NCBI GenBank assembly: GCA_002284875.1 | Contig: CP015604.1 | Coordinates: 1,240,001 to 1,304,000 of the forward strand | Origin: Actinobacteria bacterium IMCC26103 | GTDB lineage: Bacteria > Actinomycetota > Actinomycetes > Nanopelagicales > Nanopelagicaceae | Length of the DNA: 64,000 nucleotides | Reading direction: 5' to 3' | Shown: in pieces, positions 34 through 27,680 of the stretch | Layout: each line of letters starts with the position of its first letter | How positions within the stretch are numbered: the stretch's first letter is position 1 | Position numbers and translations under genes: made by a program | Notes under the pieces: generated by a model | Database searches by the model: none | What the model was told of the DNA's origin: nothing | What the model saw: the letters and a program-made list of their open reading frames with translations, nothing else

Positions 34-1644
34 CTACTGAATTGCCAGATAGGCATTCATTACCATGTTCTTGTTTTCGTAAATATTCATAATCTGTCTG
101 AAGGGAATTACTCCGTTGGTCTTAGCGATTTCTTCCCATTTGGCAGTTAGTTCTTTAACAACTTCAGGGTGCTTGGCGCTCAGATCTGTTATCTCACTTC
201 TATCTGTATCAATGTCATAGAGTTCCCAAGGGAAGTCATACTGACGAACTAGTTTCCACTTGCCACTTCGCAGAGCTGCATTGCCGCAGTGCTCCCACCA
301 CAAAGTTGGATTGGAAACATCTGCGCCTTTCCAGGCACCGAACATGCTCTGTCCGACAAGTGGTGGCAGCTTCACGCCAGCGCGCTCACTTGGATATTTA
401 GCACCAAGAAGTTCTAGAAGAGTTGGCATCACATCTGTTAACTGGAAGGGCTGTTCAAAAATCTCTCCCGTGCGAAGTTTCCCATTTGGCCAGTGAGCAA
501 TAAATGGGGAGGCGACTCCGCCTTCATGTGCCCACAATTTAAATAATTTAAATGGGGTATTGGATAAGTTGGCCCAACCACGACCATAACTTTGATAAGT
601 CTCTTCTCCACCTGGCATAACGAGTGGATCGTTTCCAATTCGAACGTCTCGGCCATCTTTAGTTTTCTTGTGCAGAATGTCACGGCGCTCTCTAAAATCT
701 GCAATCTCGCCAAAAGGCATTGGATCAGCTGATGCACCGTTATCTGCCAAAAACAAAACAACAGTGTCTTCCCAATCGCCATTTGCCTTAATCTGATCTA
801 GGACTCGTCCGATTGCTTGATCCATCTCGGTGACCATCGCTGCATAAACTTGCATGCGACGAGCCTGCCATTTGTGGTTTGCCGCATCTTCCCAACTAGG
901 CACGCCTTCATCTCGTGGACTTAACTCTAGGTATGAAGGTAGAAGACCTAAATCTTGCTGGCGCTTGAGTCGAGATTTGCGCAACTCATCCCAGCCAACG
1001 TCATAGACACCGTCATACTCTTTAATGGTTTTCTCACGAGCGTGCATTGGCCAATGTGGAGCTGTAAATGGAACATAGAGAAAGTATGGCTTCTCTGGAT
1101 TCTCTGATTTATGATTTTTTAAAAAAGTAACAGATTCATCGGCGATTACATCGGTGTAGAAAAAATCTTTTCGCTCTGCCTCGTGATCAATATTTTCTGT
1201 GCCGCGCGTTAGCGTTCCTGGTTGATAGAAGCTGCCGCATCCAGTCATCGTTCCCCAGAAGCTGTCAAAGCCGCGAGCAGTTGGCCAGGCATCATCGGGG
1301 GTGTGATTGCTAGGAGTTAAATGCCACTTTCCGCGGATTGCAGTAGTAAATCCTTCTTGCTTTAGAACTTCTGCAAGGGTGATGCAGCGATCATTTAGCT
1401 TGCCGGTGTAACCGCCATCAGCTGAATCATCCTTAGCAAGAATTCCCATACCTGCTTGGTGGGGATGTAAACCTGTGAGTAGCGATGCTCTGCTTGGACT
1501 ACAACGTGGAGTGTTGTGAAAGTTGCTCATCCGAACACCGCTACCAGCGAGTGAATCAATATTTGGAGTCTTTATCTCACCGCCATAGCATCCCAAATCT
1601 GAGTAACCCAGATCATCAGCAAGAAATATAACTACATTGGTCAT
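34..1644 (-). CDS. Cytoplasmic Cys-type sulfatase (arylsulfatase family)
   Basis: This 536-residue protein belongs to the alkaline-phosphatase-like sulfatases, which hydrolyse sulfate esters. The N-terminus carries the metal-binding Asp pair (D10, D11) and the signature CSPSRASLLTG, in which C48 is the residue converted to formylglycine. There is no signal peptide: the core fold begins at residue 2, so the enzyme should act in the cytoplasm. Its ATG overlaps the stop of the upstream permease (ATGA), so it is translationally coupled. The same operon encodes the maturase that makes formylglycine, two permeases and a binding protein, so the substrate is probably an imported sulfated sugar. The exact substrate cannot be read from the sequence. 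Confidence 0.93.
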   Translation of the reverse strand: MTNVVIFLADDLGYSDLGCYGGEIKTPNIDSLAGSGVRMSNFHNTPRCSPSRASLLTGLHPHQAGMGILAKDDSADGGYTGKLNDRCITLAEVLKQEGFTTAIRGKWHLTPSNHTPDDAWPTARGFDSFWGTMTGCGSFYQPGTLTRGTENIDHEAERKDFFYTDVIADESVTFLKNHKSENPEKPYFLYVPFTAPHWPMHAREKTIKEYDGVYDVGWDELRKSRLKRQQDLGLLPSYLELSPRDEGVPSWEDAANHKWQARRMQVYAAMVTEMDQAIGRVLDQIKANGDWEDTVVLFLADNGASADPMPFGEIADFRERRDILHKKTKDGRDVRIGNDPLVMPGGEETYQSYGRGWANLSNTPFKLFKLWAHEGGVASPFIAHWPNGKLRTGEIFEQPFQLTDVMPTLLELLGAKYPSERAGVKLPPLVGQSMFGAWKGADVSNPTLWWEHCGNAALRSGKWKLVRQYDFPWELYDIDTDRSEITDLSAKHPEVVKELTAKWEEIAKTNGVIPFRQIMNIYENKNMVMNAYLAIQ

Positions 1645-2486
1645 GACTTCACGGCGCCAGCTGTGAGCCCAGAAACTATCTGACGACTTGCAACAGCGGT
1701 CAAGATAATAATTGGTATCGCCGCCACGAATCCAGAAGCAGACATCTGACCAAAGGTAACTTCATAATCTTGCACTAGTGAGGCAATTCCTACCGTCAAT
1801 GGCGCCGCTCCACCGCCAGTTGTCATGATCAAGCCCATTAAGAATTCATTCCAGGCCATGATCGCAACATAGATTGCTACGGCGCCTAAGCCAGGTTTTG
1901 CAAGTGGAAGAAGTATTGAGAAAAAGACTCGCTTCTCAGATGCACCGTCTACTAGCGCGGCCTCGCGCAGCTCGTCAGGAATTTGATCGAAGTAGGACTT
2001 AATCATCAAAATCGCAAAGGGCAGATTAAAGACAGTATTGACCAAAACTAACCCAGTCACCGAACCCAATAAGTTCAAGTTTGTAAGGGTTACATAGATA
2101 CCGGGAACAAGAGTAATCGGAGGAACGATAGGAAGAAAGGAAGCGAGAATAAATACTGGAGTAGTAGCCCACTTCGGTGGCTTTAACTTAGAAAGCGAGT
2201 ATCCGGATCCGGATCCAATAACCAAAGTTAGAATAACTGTGCCAAAAGTTATTGTTAGGCTGTTAAAAACCTGTCTGAAAAATTTCTGAGAAGGGTCAGC
2301 CAAGGTTCGGAAATTGCCTAGCCAAAATGAGAAATCAAAGCTAGAACCGATAATTGACTTATTGGGTAGAAAAGCAAGAATTGCGATCCAAATTATTGGA
2401 ATTAGAGTTACGACTATTGCAATAAAAATCGATAGCTCTAAAGGAACGTTAACCTTAGATTTTTGAGCTGTCTTTTCCATGGTCAT
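1641..2486 (-). CDS. Carbohydrate ABC transporter permease, MalG type
   Basis: This 281-residue inner-membrane permease belongs to the MalG/ThuG class of sugar importers. The sequence shows an N-terminal hydrophobic segment at about residues 17-40, several further membrane spans and the cytoplasmic EAA loop (EAALVDGASE near residue 175) that docks on the ATPase. Its start overlaps the stop of the partner permease (TAATG), and its own stop overlaps the sulfatase start, so all three are coupled. No ATPase gene lies in this operon. Many actinobacterial sugar importers share one MsmK/MsiK-type ATPase encoded elsewhere, which is the likely arrangement here. Confidence 0.92.
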   Translation of the reverse strand: MTMEKTAQKSKVNVPLELSIFIAIVVTLIPIIWIAILAFLPNKSIIGSSFDFSFWLGNFRTLADPSQKFFRQVFNSLTITFGTVILTLVIGSGSGYSLSKLKPPKWATTPVFILASFLPIVPPITLVPGIYVTLTNLNLLGSVTGLVLVNTVFNLPFAILMIKSYFDQIPDELREAALVDGASEKRVFFSILLPLAKPGLGAVAIYVAIMAWNEFLMGLIMTTGGGAAPLTVGIASLVQDYEVTFGQMSASGFVAAIPIIILTAVASRQIVSGLTAGAVKS

Positions 2487-3403
2487 TACCGAGACCGATT
2501 CTTTCTTCTGAGTGAATAAGCAATTCCAACAATCAGCCCCAAAATCACAACGATGCAGAGACTGAGCGCACTGGCGTAACCAAAATCAAGGATTTCAACA
2601 AAAATCTTACGGATATGTAAGCTGATAAGGGATGTGGCGCCCTCTGGCCCGCCCTTAGTCAACAAGTACATTTCATCAAAGGCTTTAATACTCATGATTG
2701 TTCTAAGAACGGCGATTACTGCGATCGTCGGTAGTAAAATCGGCAGAATAATTCTTCTTATTAATTGGCTTTCAGAAGCACCGTCAACTCTTCCTGCTTC
2801 TAGAATCTCTTGATTTATTCCGTTAAGGCCTGCGTAAATGAATAGAAAGACAACTGGGGTCCAGTGCCAAACATCGACCACGATTACCGAGATCAATGCG
2901 CCTGTCTTACTATTTAGCCAAATTTGGGGCTCTCGACCTAAAGTTTCTAAAATCTTATTAATTAGCCCCACTGTTGGATCAAGAATTAGCAGCCACATAA
3001 CGCTTACAACAACTGGTGCAACCACGGCCGGCCACACAAATACATTTCGAGCCACGCTCTTGAAAATCCTCGAGCTATTGACCAGTAGCGCCCCGGCAGT
3101 TCCTGCGACAAGAGTCAAAATCACACATAAAGTTGAAAACACCAAGGTGACCTTGATCGAATTAATTGCCAAGGGATCATCTGGAATCTTCTTAAAATTA
3201 TCTAGTCCGTTGAAGGCAGAGAAGAACTCACCGTCTAGAACCTCGGTTTCCTGAAACGATAATTTAAGTAATTCATAGAGCGGATAAACCGCAAATACGG
3301 CAAGAAAAAGTACGAATGGTAGAAGGGCGACTACTGATGTCGCCCTTCTACCTGAAAGGGAGAACGAGCCTCTAGTACGACCACTAACTGCGGCGTTCTT
3401 CAT
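2486..3403 (-). CDS. Carbohydrate ABC transporter permease, MalF type
   Basis: This is the partner sugar permease, of the MalF/UgpA class, with six or so hydrophobic spans and an EAA loop (EAGRVDGASESQ) in the second half. I place the start at the ATG at 3403, which has a GAGAGGG ribosome-binding site eight bases upstream; an in-frame ATG six codons earlier (3421) has a poorer site. It lies just downstream of the binding-protein gene and overlaps the next permease by one base. It should form a heterodimeric channel with that permease. Confidence 0.9.
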   Translation of the reverse strand: MKNAAVSGRTRGSFSLSGRRATSVVALLPFVLFLAVFAVYPLYELLKLSFQETEVLDGEFFSAFNGLDNFKKIPDDPLAINSIKVTLVFSTLCVILTLVAGTAGALLVNSSRIFKSVARNVFVWPAVVAPVVVSVMWLLILDPTVGLINKILETLGREPQIWLNSKTGALISVIVVDVWHWTPVVFLFIYAGLNGINQEILEAGRVDGASESQLIRRIILPILLPTIAVIAVLRTIMSIKAFDEMYLLTKGGPEGATSLISLHIRKIFVEILDFGYASALSLCIVVILGLIVGIAYSLRRKNRSR

Positions 3404-3443
3404 ACTTGAATTCCCTCTCATTTCGTAATTAGTTACCTTTTAT

Positions 3444-4874
3444 TTATTTCTTTGTGTAGCCAGGTGGGCATTTAATATCTGCGCCCATTCTGGTTACGGC
3501 TATTTGCCGATCGCCCTTAACGCATTGGATGGTCGTCTTTTCATTGACCGCAAATGTTGTTGTCTTCACAACTTTTACCAGATCAGCGTTTAGCGCGTTC
3601 ATTCCAGCAAGAGGCGTGACAGTTCCAGCGGCAATTTCAGCCAGGCGTGTCTCTGTTGCAGTCAACATTGGCGCAGCAAAGGTCTGCCGGATGTTCTCTG
3701 ATACGAACGCCATTCCCTTTTGATAGACCGCAAGGTAGTCACGTTGAGTCGCAGTCAAAGTCGCATCTGCAATGACATCTGTACGAGTTGGAATTCCGCC
3801 GTATTCAGCGAATTTCATTTGGGCCTTCTTTGACATTACCCAGTTGATGTAACTCAAAGCAGCCTTCTCGCGCTCTGATGTGAGTCCAGTTGGAATAGAC
3901 ATCGCCCAAGTACCAGAGACGACACCAGGATCACAGGAAGCGCAACCCTTTGGCATAACTGCAAAGCCGATCTTGCCGGCAACCTTTGATGCAGCCGGAT
4001 CATTCATCGCATTTGCAGCTGCGAATACGACTTGACCTTGTGCCGCATCTCCAGCTTGCATTGCAGCAATTACCTGATTTTGACCAATTGTGTTGGTTGC
4101 TGCAGGACCGTATTTAGCAAGAGCACGTAAGGTCTTTGCTGCTGATATGCCCTCTGGGGAGTTAATAACTGGAAGCCAGTCTTCGCCCTGCTTGTTGAAG
4201 AATCTTCCACCATAAGAGGCAAGGATATGGATGTAGTCATAGGTAACACTCGCACCGCTCGTTGTTGATTGTGTACGAATTATGTAAGGGTATTTGACAA
4301 CGTTTGCAGCCTTAATTTTCGCACAGTTAGCCAGAACTTCTTCCCAAGTTGTTGGAACCTTGAGATTTAGTTGTTCGTAGATATCTTTGCGATATAGAAA
4401 TACGTTTGTATTTCCGTTCAAAGGCATGCTCATCACATCGCCCTTTGGATCGCTAAACCTCTTGGTCGGATTCCAGTACATGAAGTTTCCGTATGAGCCA
4501 ATATTTGGATCTACCTTGAAGTTAGGATCAATTGCCTTAAATGGCTTAACCCACTTGTTATTTGCGAATTCGTGGGTGAAGAGTTCATCGTACTGATAAA
4601 CATCATAGGTTCGGTTGCTGGCTTGAATATCTGTGACCAGTGTTGGCCGCATTTCTGCGTAAGGAAATACGCGAACATCGACTTCGATACCTGTTTCTTT
4701 GGTGTAATCGAGAATTAACTTCTTATACGCATTCAGCCATGGAGACTGATTGACGTTGATCGTCAACTTCGTAACTGCAGCCTGAGAAGCAGACATAGGT
4801 AGCGATGTAGCTAGAATTGCAAATAACGCAGTTCCGGCGACGGCCACCTTCCGCCATTTTCTTCCTTTTATCAT
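3444..4874 (-). CDS. Sugar-binding protein of the ABC importer, with a C-terminal CVKG/KCPxGY tail
   Basis: This 476-residue extracellular solute-binding protein (family 1 type) delivers a sugar to the two downstream permeases. Residues 1 to about 32 form a signal peptide (basic start, hydrophobic core, SASQAA cleavage region). No lipobox cysteine follows, unlike the binding protein at 19584-21305. After the binding-protein fold ends near residue 445 there is a separate tail of about 30 residues with the pattern CVKG...KCPPGYTKK. The secreted protein at 26019-27680 ends in a closely similar tail. The tail may hold the protein at the cell surface; that is inference. The gene lies between the sulfatase maturase and the permeases, so the ligand is probably a sulfated sugar. 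Confidence 0.9.
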   Translation of the reverse strand: MIKGRKWRKVAVAGTALFAILATSLPMSASQAAVTKLTINVNQSPWLNAYKKLILDYTKETGIEVDVRVFPYAEMRPTLVTDIQASNRTYDVYQYDELFTHEFANNKWVKPFKAIDPNFKVDPNIGSYGNFMYWNPTKRFSDPKGDVMSMPLNGNTNVFLYRKDIYEQLNLKVPTTWEEVLANCAKIKAANVVKYPYIIRTQSTTSGASVTYDYIHILASYGGRFFNKQGEDWLPVINSPEGISAAKTLRALAKYGPAATNTIGQNQVIAAMQAGDAAQGQVVFAAANAMNDPAASKVAGKIGFAVMPKGCASCDPGVVSGTWAMSIPTGLTSEREKAALSYINWVMSKKAQMKFAEYGGIPTRTDVIADATLTATQRDYLAVYQKGMAFVSENIRQTFAAPMLTATETRLAEIAAGTVTPLAGMNALNADLVKVVKTTTFAVNEKTTIQCVKGDRQIAVTRMGADIKCPPGYTKK

Positions 4875-4908
4875 TGCTTACCTTCTCTCATTTGCTCCTT
4901 TGCTGCGT

Positions 4909-5853
4909 TCACAGTGAACTCAGCGCTTCTATATTTTTATCCGCTACGCAACGAAATCCGATGTGCGCAGTGAAACCATTTTTGGGTTGAGATGTTCTGG
5001 CGGAAAGGCGATATCGATTGCAATATGAGTCATGGCATAGGTAAGAGCCACCTTTGATCACTTTGCTTTCGTCTGAAAGTTGTGAGTTATCGCTCCACGA
5101 GTCCAGGCACCATTCCCAGACATTTCCGCAGACGTTATAAAGCCCATAGCCATTTGCAGCAAATGCATAAACCGGAGCCGTGGCGATGTACCCATCTTCG
5201 CCAGAGTTAAAATCAGGAAAATCTCCCTGCCAAATATTGCAGTGAAATTCGTTGTTAAGTGTTAATTCATCGCCCCATGAATAGAGAGAACCTTCGCGAC
5301 CTCCACGAGCAGCCTTTTCCCATTCAGCCTCTGTTGGAAGTCTCTTTCCGTTCCATTGCGCGAATGCATTTGCGTCATCCCAGGAGATGTGAACTACTGG
5401 GTGATCAAGAAGTTCTGCAATTGATGAACTAGGTCCCTGCGGGTGGCGCCAATCTGCGCCATTTACCCCAACCCACCATGGAGTATTTGAAGACTGACCC
5501 ATCAAATGCTTCTCATCGAGTTCGGAAATTAAACTAGCGGGAACAAATGACCACCCTAATAGCTCTGCTTCAGTTTTGTAATTAGTGGCTTCAACAAATT
5601 TTGAGAAATCTAAGTTTGTAACTGCAGTCTCATCGATCCAATATTCATCGAGTTCCACAGATCGTTGTGGGCCTTCTCCATCTACTGGATAGGCCATTGC
5701 GTTATTGGTTCCCATTAAGAATGGGCCTGCTGGGATTTTCACCATTCGTGAGTAATCACGTATTGCAGTTTTCAGGGCTGTGGCTTGGGAAATCTGTTCG
5801 CTGCGATTTTCGACAGTCAGGGTCCCAGCCGGACTACAGCATCCACTGCCCAT
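4909..5853 (-). CDS. Formylglycine-generating enzyme (sulfatase maturase)
   Basis: This 314-residue protein is a SUMF1/EgtB-fold formylglycine-generating enzyme, which oxidises the sulfatase signature cysteine to formylglycine using oxygen and copper. The C-terminal active site GGSYLCHDSYC contains C273 and C278, five residues apart as in characterised enzymes. The fold motifs NVCGNVWEWC, LPTEAEWEKAARGG and GFRCVA are all present. The N-terminus has a CCSP motif seen in many family members. There is no signal peptide, so it acts in the cytoplasm like the sulfatase. It is the first gene of the leftward operon, with an AAGGAGAG ribosome-binding site before ATG 5853. Its presence indicates the sulfatase is matured aerobically. 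Confidence 0.93.
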   Translation of the reverse strand: MGSGCCSPAGTLTVENRSEQISQATALKTAIRDYSRMVKIPAGPFLMGTNNAMAYPVDGEGPQRSVELDEYWIDETAVTNLDFSKFVEATNYKTEAELLGWSFVPASLISELDEKHLMGQSSNTPWWVGVNGADWRHPQGPSSSIAELLDHPVVHISWDDANAFAQWNGKRLPTEAEWEKAARGGREGSLYSWGDELTLNNEFHCNIWQGDFPDFNSGEDGYIATAPVYAFAANGYGLYNVCGNVWEWCLDSWSDNSQLSDESKVIKGGSYLCHDSYCNRYRLSARTSQPKNGFTAHIGFRCVADKNIEALSSL

Positions 5854-6055
5854 GAGCTCTCCTTAAATAATCACAGTTAACTAAACTTCCTTACAGATCT
5901 GGTGCTTAATCCAGAAACATCTCCTCCATGTACTTTTATATAGTTAAGCCTCTATACTAAAACTAATCATCCCCAAGTGATGTGTCAAGGGTCACCAAGG
6001 GTCGATTATTTTGGCAAGTCGCGTAGGCGACTTCTTATACGAAACGAGGTTGCAG
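5854..6055. promoter_or_regulatory. Divergent promoter region between the sulfatase operon and the ROK regulator
   Basis: This 202-base intergenic region must hold promoters for both directions. On the minus strand TTGACA (5988-5983), a 17-base spacer and TAGTTT (5965-5960) form a good promoter for the sulfatase operon. Candidate operator elements for the neighbouring ROK protein are GTTAACTAAACTT (5876-5888) and the ACTAAAACTAAT stretch (5957-5968) that overlaps the -10 box; they resemble the AACTAAAC/TTAGTTT half-sites of XylR-type ROK proteins. On the plus strand TATACT (5953-5958) could serve the regulator gene, but no good -35 box accompanies it. Confidence 0.5.
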
Positions 6056-7294
6056 ATGCCAGCAAGCAAATCTCCCTCGAATAAGCCCAAAAATGGGGAA
6101 ATCCTGGAACAGTCGGGGCTGCGTCGACACAATTTGGGGATCATCTTCAGGGCATTGCGAGATTCTGGGCCACTTTCTCGGGCGCAGTTGGCCAATGCAA
6201 CTGGAATGACAAAACCCGGGGTGAATAACATCGTTGACGAATTACTCGAGCGAGGTCTGCTGACTCAAGGGGTAGAAGAGTCAAAGCCAGAGCGGGGCCG
6301 TCCTGGCGTTCTCCTGACAATCAATGCTCAAGCCACATCGATCATCGTCATCGAACTTCGAGCGTTTTATACGGCGATTATCGCATTTGATTTGCTCGGT
6401 CAAGAGTTTTATCGCGAGCGAGCTACGACTTCTTACAATCTCACTCCTGAAGAGCGCACTACAGAAGTTGCGCCATTTCTCGAAAGAGCAATCCAATCAG
6501 CTACCCGCCAGGCATCGCGCATCGCCAAATTAATTGTTGTTTTTCCTGGAATTATTGATGCAGAATTGAAAGTTACTTCCTCATCGCTCAATTGGCAAAA
6601 GTTAGAGTTGATGCAGTACGTAAAAAACGTGGTTCCATCAAGTATTCCAATAGAAATTAACACCGTCGCAAAACTCGCCGCATTTGCCGAATACGAAAAT
6701 CTCTTGAAAGAAAATAAAACATCAAAGCTTTTAATGCACCTCGAATTAGGAATTACTCCAGGCATTGCTGTTGTGCAAAATGGAGAAATACAATTGGGCG
6801 CAAACTTATCTATGGGCAATATCGCTCACATTTCTATAAATGAGCACGGAAAATTATGCAGGTGTGGAAAAATTGGGTGCACCGAGACTGAAATTGGCTT
6901 TAAAGTCCTGATTGAAAACACTTGTCCAGATCTAGTTAAAGACTGGAGTAAGGACAGTGAGTTCTACCTAAGTGAGATTATCAGTAGGGCTAAAAATGGC
7001 GATGACGTTGTATTTAAAGGCATTGATCTTATTGCGCAATCTATAGCCACAACTCTCGCAATATTAATTCCCATTTTAGACCCAGATAGGGTGATTTTAG
7101 GAGGATATGCAGTACGTATCACTGACTTGCTGATACCGAGACTGAAGCATCACTTGGAGAAAAAAAATAAAGACATTAGTTCTTTCTCAATAGATACATC
7201 TGCCCTAGATACTGATGCGGCCCTTTTTGGCGCCTGTATTTTGGCCCAAGCTGAACTGTTTAATTCTCCTCATTCAATTTCAGAACTTACATGA
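6056..7294 (+). CDS. ROK-family transcriptional regulator
   Basis: This 412-residue protein has an N-terminal winged helix-turn-helix (about residues 20-85, containing LSRAQLANATGMTKPGVNNIVDEL) followed by a sugar-kinase-like ROK domain. The zinc-binding ROK signature CRCGKIGC is present with cysteines at about 268, 270 and 275. I chose ATG 6056 because a GAGG ribosome-binding site lies six bases upstream; a TTG at 6011 would give a 15-residue extension. It lies between, and divergent from or upstream of, the sulfatase and rhamnose operons, so it probably controls one or both in response to a sugar. The ligand is inference. Confidence 0.9.
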   Translation: MPASKSPSNKPKNGEILEQSGLRRHNLGIIFRALRDSGPLSRAQLANATGMTKPGVNNIVDELLERGLLTQGVEESKPERGRPGVLLTINAQATSIIVIELRAFYTAIIAFDLLGQEFYRERATTSYNLTPEERTTEVAPFLERAIQSATRQASRIAKLIVVFPGIIDAELKVTSSSLNWQKLELMQYVKNVVPSSIPIEINTVAKLAAFAEYENLLKENKTSKLLMHLELGITPGIAVVQNGEIQLGANLSMGNIAHISINEHGKLCRCGKIGCTETEIGFKVLIENTCPDLVKDWSKDSEFYLSEIISRAKNGDDVVFKGIDLIAQSIATTLAILIPILDPDRVILGGYAVRITDLLIPRLKHHLEKKNKDISSFSIDTSALDTDAALFGACILAQAELFNSPHSISELT

Positions 7295-26018: not shown

Positions 26019-27680
26019 GTGAAGTCAGTCCGTAAATCTGGTTCATCGTTAATTGCCGCCCTCTTATTGGGTTCAGTTATTTCAGCAACTGTGGCCGAAG
26101 CCGGTGCGAAAATTCCTTCGACGGTTCCTTACTTCGGTCTCTATCTGACTGAAAGCTTTGACTTAAATGGCGAGCCGGATAATTTCTATGCCGATCCCAA
26201 CAACCCGGATTCAACAAAAATCCTTCGGTGTTCAAGTGTTGACGATGAAATTTGCACAAATGCAACGTCAGTCATGGTTATCCATAATCTTCCAACTTGC
26301 GTTATTGATTCATCATTTGATTGCATTAAATCAGTCTGGGCTATTGACCCTTCTGGTAAGAAAATAGAAGGACAATTTCTAAATTCCCTTCCAGTTAAAG
26401 GAACTACAGACCGTCCAGCAATTCCCTCTATGTTGCTATCGGCGACAAATGGGTTTGGTGGCCTTTGGAAGATTCCAGGTGTAGTAAATAGCGGTGGAAC
26501 TGAAAACTATTTTGTTTCCACTCGCATCAGCTCTTGGAATGAAAAAGCTGTGGGACAGAAATTGAGCACAACTCAATATTATTATGGCCAAGTTAGTTCA
26601 GGAATCATCCCTGTTAAGCCGGTTAGCGGAAATTATTCACCAGTGAATTCACGTATTAGTTGGGGTCGAGATATGACAACAACAAATACACCACCAACTT
26701 ATACGCCGCAAAAAGAGCGTTGTACTGTTGTCGACACTGGCGTGTGCCAACTTCCTCAAGACTTTCCCGATGGATACCGATTTGGAATGTCCGTTCAGCT
26801 TGCTCAGAAGGTAAGCGGTTGGTTTCACGGACGTATCGCACTTCCGCTCATTAGCGTTAGCCCCGATGGTAAAGGTCAAATTGTTAGTATCGAAGCTGAG
26901 CCTGTAAAGATTTCAACTCTCGACTTCACAATTCCGAATGCGCAGATACCCGAATCCGTAAGAAAAGTTATCTTTAACGGCTCTGACTGGGGTGTTATGG
27001 GTGCTGATAACGGCGGTGAGCAAACAATGCTTAACGGTCTCTCAGATCCACTCACTATGCAGATCATGAACGATATGTTGCCGACTATTGGAGATAAGGC
27101 CACTAAGACTTCGCAATATTGGTCATACAGCGCGCTAAATACGTGGCAGAACCCAGAGATTCAAAAGTGCACTAAGTCGAAAGACGAACTCGGTGGAGTC
27201 GTGACGACTAATGCGCTCACATATAGCGCCGGACCACCTATTTATAACAAGTCCACTGGATCACTCGAATATAAAGTTGCATCTCCACACTTCGAAGCAA
27301 GTGGTGCTGTGGCACTTGGAAGCTATGACCTAGTAATTAATAGCACTGTTGCCCGCTGTATCTACGAATTCTCAAGCGCACCAATTCAAGCTGAAATCTC
27401 AGTTACAACTTCTGACGGTGAGAAGAAAGTTGCAACCACTGTCGTCAATGAGAAGAACGGCTGGTTATATCTATCAGCTAAGGGATTTACCTTCTCCTCT
27501 CCTACGATCAATGTGAAGTTATCGCAGGAGAAAGTAGTTGCTCCAACTCCTTCTGCGACTCCGGTTGCAACGGTAACTGTTGTGAAGAAATCGGTCACAA
27601 TCACCTGTGTTAAAGGCAAAACCACTAAGAAAGTAAGTGGAACTAGCCCTAAGTGCCCAGCAGGATATAAAAAGAAGTAA
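26019..27680 (+). CDS. Large secreted protein of unknown function with C-terminal CVKG/KCPxGY tail
   Basis: This 553-residue protein has a signal peptide (KSVRKSGSSLIAALLLGSVI, cleavage near AEAGA) and no recognisable catalytic domain. I chose GTG 26019 because GGAG lies six bases upstream; ATG 26007 would add four residues. The body has scattered cysteines, probably disulfide-bonded after export, and beta-rich stretches with Ig-like flavour near the C-terminus (VTTSDGEKKVATTVV). A Pro/Thr-rich linker (VAPTPSATPVATVTVV) leads to a 28-residue tail, TITCVKGKTTKKV...KCPAGYKKK, like that of the binding protein at 3444-4874. A surface or envelope role is likely, but the function is unknown. Confidence 0.8.
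   Translation: MKSVRKSGSSLIAALLLGSVISATVAEAGAKIPSTVPYFGLYLTESFDLNGEPDNFYADPNNPDSTKILRCSSVDDEICTNATSVMVIHNLPTCVIDSSFDCIKSVWAIDPSGKKIEGQFLNSLPVKGTTDRPAIPSMLLSATNGFGGLWKIPGVVNSGGTENYFVSTRISSWNEKAVGQKLSTTQYYYGQVSSGIIPVKPVSGNYSPVNSRISWGRDMTTTNTPPTYTPQKERCTVVDTGVCQLPQDFPDGYRFGMSVQLAQKVSGWFHGRIALPLISVSPDGKGQIVSIEAEPVKISTLDFTIPNAQIPESVRKVIFNGSDWGVMGADNGGEQTMLNGLSDPLTMQIMNDMLPTIGDKATKTSQYWSYSALNTWQNPEIQKCTKSKDELGGVVTTNALTYSAGPPIYNKSTGSLEYKVASPHFEASGAVALGSYDLVINSTVARCIYEFSSAPIQAEISVTTSDGEKKVATTVVNEKNGWLYLSAKGFTFSSPTINVKLSQEKVVAPTPSATPVATVTVVKKSVTITCVKGKTTKKVSGTSPKCPAGYKKK

Follow-up and report, generated by a model that had tools for sequence, protein, structure and literature searches.

A short two-cysteine tail on unrelated secreted proteins of Nanopelagicales as a candidate non-covalent envelope-retention module

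Two secreted proteins encoded in one stretch of DNA of Actinobacteria bacterium IMCC26103 (order Nanopelagicales; 64,000 nucleotides, hereafter the window) end in the same short sequence, and the locus raises the question of what such a tail does for the proteins that carry it. A sequence-only reading had described a detachable C-terminal tail with two cysteines and a basic end and had proposed that it serves envelope retention or sorting. Both tails lie in frame where that reading had placed them (Table 1). The main domains are indeed unrelated, one protein matching SBP_bac_1 and the other, of 557 residues, matching no Pfam family at E ≤ 1 and no NCBIfam model at E ≤ 0.1. By eye, each has an ordinary Sec signal peptide and no lipobox, as had been stated, and the Pro/Thr-rich linker reported ahead of one tail is present; in the AlphaFold2 model of the 557-residue protein, pLDDT in this linker falls below 50 at residues 521–525. 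The tail of the sugar-binding protein has two extra residues between its cysteines.

Table 1. Features of the window and of phage contigs that are discussed in the text (window positions are counted from its first letter; L numbers designate other stretches).
Feature	Location	Strand	Remark
Secreted protein, family A, 557 aa	26007..27680	+	ends TITCVKGKTTKKVSGTSPKCPAGYKKK
Pro/Thr/Ala/Val-rich linker ahead of the tail	27531..27593	+	from sequence; its last part lies within the profile match
C-terminal tail module, two Cys, Lys-rich	27579..27677	+	profile match E = 1.2e-15
ABC-type sugar-binding protein (SBP_bac_1)	3444..4874	-	ends TTIQCVKGDRQIAVTRMGADIKCPPGYTKK
C-terminal tail module of the sugar-binding protein	3447..3551	-	profile match E = 1.5e-15
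Sugar-binding gene cluster	34-7294		sulfatase, two ABC permeases, tailed binding protein, sulfatase-activating enzyme, ROK regulator
Phage tailed trypsin-like proteases	L321:10871-12079 (others: L453-L457, L459, L460, L462-L480)	- (L321)	
Phage protein of about 570 residues, signal peptide	L481:6593-8296	+	immediately follows the large terminase subunit on L481
Other loci of the phage protein of about 570 residues	L458, L461, L490-L511		

Taken alone, the pair is weak evidence, because a search of the own genome with the family-A tail as single query (18 matches at E ≤ 10) ranked the tail of the sugar-binding protein only 17th, at E = 0.013. The relationship is nevertheless secure, since the whole family supports it: leave-one-out profiles recovered the sugar-binding tail at E = 1.1e-4 and the family-A tail at 3.2e-13, and a profile built from 111 tails of other records recovered them at 1.4e-4 and 9e-15, all four values being computed for 20,000 sequences. 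A profile of 16 tails found 17 clear copies on 14 proteins in the own genome (1,456,516 bases, one contig), with E between 1.4e-17 and 2.4e-14, plus one marginal match at E = 0.5. A chance match between two proteins was ruled out by these single-query, 16-tail and leave-one-out results together with the order-wide search described below. The motif is thus not limited to two proteins, and two were seen before because those two happen to fall inside the window.

The 14 tailed proteins of the own genome are the sugar-binding protein and 13 paralogues that we call family A, among them the 557-residue protein, so that the earlier label of an orphan protein was mistaken. The family-A genes of this 1.46 Mb genome have reading frames of 419–774 residues; some are grouped by three, three and two, and the rest lie singly. 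The 557-residue protein has a layout of signal peptide, beta-rich body, linker and tail, and the family has many conserved cysteines. Weak matches to the phloem lectin PP2 were found in 20 of 79 family-A members (best E = 6e-4), and comparison of the fold with the PDB (Foldseek, VIA-align 2) yielded nothing beyond weak, partial matches: Foldseek reached E-values of about 1e-5 and 2e-5 for its top two, at a TM of 0.14, and the best Z was 4.5. Many of these structures are beta-domains of carbohydrate enzymes; we draw no inference from these or from the PP2 matches. The tail was present in 144 of 152 family-A ORFs, a rate biased by the choice of stretches for their tails; of the eight without a full tail, two have a degenerate two-cysteine end, two are truncated and four run off the stretch. 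In 'Ca. Planktophila lacus' (L215, NZ_CP016769.1), a family-A gene is apparently split in two frames, with the tail on the second alone.

Beyond the own genome, a profile search at E ≤ 0.001 found the tail in 204 of 296 genomes of the order Nanopelagicales, in 85 of the 108 good genomes of the order and in 15 of its 17 genera. Among 396 genomes sampled from the phylum, it was found in the own genome and in two genomes of one other family, hence in 2 of the 395 others. The number of tails per genome ranges from 0 to 23, even inside the genus of the window, and two nearly complete one-contig genomes have no tail at E ≤ 0.001; the function of the tail is therefore not essential. A DNA scan of named genomes for KCPxGYKKK followed by a stop returned at least 115 stretches, each with a profile match, among which L238 and L296 have the second half of the tail alone in frame. 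This collection is uninformative on the position of the tail or the conservation of KC-P-x-GYKKK, since the pattern includes these residues and the stop codon. Among 80 titled stretches were 'Candidatus Planktophila lacus' MMS-21-148, several Nanopelagicaceae MAGs and a few records titled acIV or Acidimicrobiaceae; some titles (Bifidobacterium, Streptomyces and others) look automatic and were not relied on. In the genomes sampled, the tail thus appears to be nearly restricted to one order of freshwater actinobacteria.

The proteins that carry the tail are diverse. From 302 tailed ORFs, 12 were removed as too short and 27 as redundant, and the remaining 263 fell into 39 host clusters without mutual match at the threshold used, 15 of them with at least two members and 24 single (some possibly fragments). 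The largest clusters are family A (138) and trypsin-like proteases (40). Pfam families in 40 hosts outside family A were Trypsin (7), Trypsin_2 (4), Ig-type (3) and neocarzinostatin (2), and further SBP_bac_1, Peripla_BP_6, AT3 with SGNH, DUF1501, CAP, FMN_bind and fn3, among others. One of these 40 hosts matches SucT (NCBIfam NF058601, E = 2.3e-23), an enzyme that modifies the mycobacterial cell-wall arabinogalactan, and we infer that this host is the tailed membrane acyltransferase recognized by Pfam as AT3-SGNH. The description of the tail as detachable is borne out by its occurrence on 39 dissimilar host clusters and by its alternation with tail-less ends among the phage homologues considered below.

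Nearly all of these hosts have a predicted signal peptide. A simple rule recognized a signal peptide in 108/114, 110/115 and 16/17 complete ORFs of three sets, compared with 21/54 ORFs of the window; the rule catches membrane proteins too, and the count skipped 44 incomplete or short ORFs (8, 33 and 3 in the three sets). A crude lipobox rule flagged 4/114, 1/115 and 0/17 of the complete tailed ORFs. On inspection, four of the five flags came from a wrong start or from a cysteine that lies inside the hydrophobic core, ahead of a normal cleavage site, and L140 is ambiguous. The seven ORFs with neither signal were, by eye, a multi-pass acyltransferase, a protein whose signal peptide is visible behind an unusual start, and five fragments. 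The pairing of tail and signal peptide, which had been raised as a check, holds for nearly all proteins, and by eye no tailed protein among the complete ORFs of the three sets looked cytoplasmic.

The position of the tail was taken from 122 tailed ORFs (14 from the own genome, 106 from 17 genomes of the order and 2 from the other family), and its conservation from 119 proteins chosen by profile. In 117 of the 122 ORFs it lies within six residues of the stop. The five others comprise three homologous proteins with an N-terminal tail directly behind the signal peptide, one weak internal case and one own-genome protein with four tandem copies, the last of them 16 residues before the end. A strong C-terminal preference is thus observed, and the tail is not always terminal. 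Internal copies had been named in advance as grounds for refutation; they disfavour a strictly terminal signal and are still compatible with a binding module, which the four tandem copies and the N-terminal copies fit. The linkers ahead of the tails are rich in Ala, Pro, Thr, Lys and Ser, and in some proteins a long Ala/Lys/Glu stretch precedes the tail.

Among the 119 profile-chosen proteins, both cysteines are invariant, and Ile before the first cysteine, Lys-Gly after it, and Pro and Gly after the second are kept in at least 90%. A larger tail alignment (113 rows) shows many more conserved lysines, some of which were built in by the search pattern. The mean net charge over the 122 ORFs is +9.1 in the last 34 residues and −3.3 in the bodies, in agreement with the basic character first ascribed to the tail. 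AlphaFold2 predicted the isolated tail as a beta-hairpin (mean pLDDT 84, pTM 0.45), and the model of the 557-residue protein has a beta-rich body and the same terminal hairpin (mean pLDDT 80.7, pTM 0.80). We propose that the tail is a small autonomous module of about 30 residues, a Lys-rich beta-hairpin that would be closed by one internal disulphide. The tail peptide had no Pfam match at E ≤ 1, a search of solved structures by sequence gave a best E of 0.28, and a fold search with the tail alone gave a best E of 0.98. No Pfam or NCBIfam model for the tail was found, as an existing model should match most tailed proteins, and the commonest matches were the above PP2 in 20 (Pfam) and PspA in 2 (NCBIfam) of the 79 family-A proteins, and trypsin in 7 (Pfam) and ZirU in 3 (NCBIfam) of the 40 other hosts.

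The disulphide was considered through the cysteines of the host proteins, counted in the mature part with an estimated start. Exactly two cysteines were present in all 109 complete terminal tails, a number that the selecting profile favours. Outside the tail the number was even in 107 of the 109 (family A 74/75, others 33/34), amounting in family A to 4, 6, 8, 10 or 12 with a single exception of 13; among the ORFs of the window, an odd number occurs in 20 of 54. Because the outside cysteines are even, the pair in the tail needs no external partner, and the two tail cysteines probably pair with each other. The odd exception among the other hosts is the sugar-binding protein of the window itself, which has three outside cysteines and counts against the rule. 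VKOR is a common actinobacterial disulphide enzyme. It (PF07884) was found above the cut-off in one of 16 genomes, with weak matches under the cut-off in two more and none in the own genome, and was accordingly rejected as the disulphide enzyme of the tails; its scarcity in these 16 genomes weighs against the proposed disulphide-closed module.

The similarity of the tails does not come from recent copying. The 12 own tails of standard length have a mean amino-acid identity of 0.72, and at identical residues their third positions agree at 0.45, compared with 0.47 for random synonymous codons. Among 3051 cross-cluster pairs of 106 tails, none exceeded 0.85 in amino acids and 0.8 in third positions together. 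With amino acids conserved and synonymous sites randomized, the tail seems to be maintained by selection, and the randomized third positions rule out recent gene conversion as the source of the similarity. To judge from these alignments, the tail looks old and under selection.

The sugar-binding protein allows the tail to be compared with another anchor. The actinobacterial lipobox, like the tail in our reading, would hold a binding protein at the cell, and in the protein of the window, which has a signal peptide, no lipobox and a C-terminal tail, the tail seems to stand in for it. Among 201 genomes of the family only one other close orthologue (92% identical) was found; within the order, both close orthologues, the own protein included, carry the tail and lack a lipobox. 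A search of 394 genomes of the class gave seven relatives outside the order (31–38% identical), all with an N-terminal lipobox-type cysteine and no tail. Because the orthologue occurs in just one other family genome, the sulfated-sugar gene cluster (Table 1) was probably acquired, and it looks as if a lipid anchor was exchanged for the tail within it; with lipobox relatives so distant, the exchange is not visible stepwise. The tail is C-terminal, unlike the lipobox, and is no general replacement for the lipid anchor. This was excluded by the presence of Lgt, which acts in lipoprotein synthesis, in all 16 genomes searched and by the set of five own SBP_bac_1 proteins, of which one is tailed, one has a lipobox, two have neither anchor and the fifth has a different N-terminal two-cysteine motif. 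The two with neither lipobox nor tail (L433, L436) do have a signal peptide, so the tail is not required to keep a binding protein, which counts against the retention reading.

Considering these results, we favour, with modest confidence, the reading that the tail is a non-covalent envelope-retention module. A flexible linker would join it to Sec-exported proteins, and after export the tail would bind, non-covalently, some component of the cell's own envelope that is negatively charged or specific in another way, perhaps a cell-wall polymer or peptidoglycan; to our knowledge, actinobacteria of this kind have no outer membrane. Such retention would keep enzymes, binding proteins and surface proteins on the cell. 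Hosts that should stay at the cell, such as the binding protein and the acyltransferase, support a module that binds the envelope. On the multi-pass acyltransferase, the tail cannot serve simply to prevent loss, which counts against retention. Of the two functions originally proposed, retention is thus the better supported, and a strict sorting signal is disfavoured. The latter would be a covalent signal, by which a transpeptidase or processing enzyme would attach the protein to the envelope on recognizing its tail, in the manner of sortase and LPXTG. The terminal position of 117 of 122 copies and the strict motif common to different hosts would suit it, but the N-terminal, internal and tandem copies would not; LPxTG was absent from the last 80 residues of all 109 complete terminal tail proteins, and of these 109 only two show, within their final 50 residues and ahead of the tail, a 17-residue segment that is weakly hydrophobic. 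Furthermore, no sortase (PF04203) was found in 15 of 16 genomes, including the own genome with its 17 tails and five others with 15–23 tails (G165, G166, G167, G172 and G076); the only one with a sortase has two tails (G287). We consider covalent sorting improbable.

The target of the tail might instead lie outside the cell, as algal or detrital polysaccharide, surfaces or prey, which would make the tail an adhesion or substrate-binding module. Several hosts look degradative or adhesive, a basic module would bind anionic polysaccharides, and the sugar-binding protein is encoded inside a sulfatase gene cluster. Against this, an ABC sugar-binding protein should remain beside its permeases, the membrane acyltransferase is already anchored, the 39 host clusters with different likely substrates use the same tail, and for the phage copies the infected cell would be the more plausible site of action. 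External binding therefore seems unlikely to us. A disulphide hairpin might also be a protective or folding cap that shields the C-terminus from peptidases or adds solubility and has no specific partner. We give this little credence: the nearly constant terminal position, the compact predicted hairpin and the number of hosts that are themselves proteases would agree with a cap, yet internal tandem copies cap nothing, Lys-Gly, Pro and Gly are conserved beyond the cysteines, and the charge contrast between tail and bodies is large.

Several known systems resemble a retention module of this type. LysM, GW and choline-binding repeats are non-covalent wall-binding modules of Gram-positive bacteria; like the tail, such modules are short, recur on secreted proteins that are unrelated, at the N- or the C-terminus and in some cases in tandem, and stand behind a linker. 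CWB2 of Clostridioides difficile is another example (PMC4973711). The tail differs from these modules in being one 30-residue two-cysteine hairpin rather than a set of longer repeats, in having no Pfam match and in its occurrence in one order, two genomes of another family and a few acIV- or Acidimicrobiaceae-titled records. No wall-binding model was among the Pfam families listed for the 119 full proteins (25 of 28 families for the 40 outside family A), and one of the 79 family-A proteins weakly matches NCBIfam wall_bind_EntA (E = 0.055). The C-terminal sorting signals LPXTG, PEP-CTERM and GlyGly-CTERM share with the tail the principle of one conserved tag, basic at its end, at the C-terminus of secreted proteins that are otherwise unrelated; in contrast to them, the tail has no hydrophobic membrane segment or LPxTG, occurs mostly in genomes where no sortase was found and has non-terminal copies. 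Models for PEP-CTERM, GlyGly-CTERM and T9SS C-termini are included in NCBIfam, and none was among the NCBIfam matches of the 79 family-A proteins (E ≤ 0.1) and the 40 others (E ≤ 0.01), a search in which short profiles can miss. A reused surface-retention module is a known kind of device; our search of the open-access literature found no paper describing this tail, its almost exclusive occurrence in one order or its adoption by phages.

Some phages of these actinobacteria apparently use the tail on secreted proteins as well. A search of IMG/VR with the whole-tail pattern gave 30 stretches, all with the tail in frame, 27 of them encoding all or part of a secreted trypsin-like protease and three a protein of about 570 residues. 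A shorter pattern gave at least 120 stretches, which seem to be mostly chance hits, because among them a clear tail was seen in L321 alone and a weak, partial match in L410. On a few of these putative phage contigs the phage nature of the neighbouring genes was checked: L481 encodes a large terminase subunit and a UvsX-like recombinase, L321 an endolysin and L455 a WhiB-like regulator. One report suggests WhiB as a key indicator of actinophages (PMC10202952). The five phage proteases checked all match Pfam Trypsin. Of eight near-copy loci related to one protease by its body, six are tailed, among them L487, where the tail has a reading frame of its own, and two run off the contig end. When 36 proteases are placed in a tree, the labels phage and host need four changes, three of which are forced by well-supported branches. 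This suggests that tailed proteases moved between host and phage more than once, in a direction not known and in a tree where some long branches meet. As all 36 rows are tailed, the tree cannot test gain of the tail.

The second phage protein gives the comparison that the proteases do not. Of 27 loci related to one member of about 570 residues, eight, that member among them, are tailed, 14 are tail-less and five are incomplete or distant, and the tail-less forms finish in a short basic end. The 21 complete other loci are 72–80% identical to that member, and since many contigs are near-copies, these counts are not independent. No Pfam or PHROG match was found for the members scanned, and among the deposited phages of INPHARED there was no match for the 557-residue window protein, one phage protein and two phage proteases.

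As a speculation that we hold to be rather doubtful, the tail could be a lineage-wide surface address of Nanopelagicales that is read by a specific envelope receptor. Phages would then have repeatedly taken up tailed proteases and would dress the infected cell with retained enzymes, for example destroying receptors against superinfection or trimming family-A surface proteins, and the tail would also be a host label for phages of a group without CRISPR spacers. The host group is reported to lack CRISPR-cas systems in a paper that also describes a 'Ca. Planktophila' strain in culture together with two phages, which makes the idea of the tail testable. Whatever the target, the tag, with its presence in 204 of the 296 Nanopelagicales genomes, makes a set of surface proteins recognizable at once, points to a candidate sortase-free mechanism of retention and is a label that may link phage contigs to their host group.

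A second short two-cysteine module, roughly GxxC-x3-G...YxC-x-K-x-GKKLVW, was observed right behind signal peptides. It had no Pfam match in three examples, was seen near the ORF starts of L434, L013, L037, L057, L078, L242, L256 and L289, and is possibly a companion N-terminal module.
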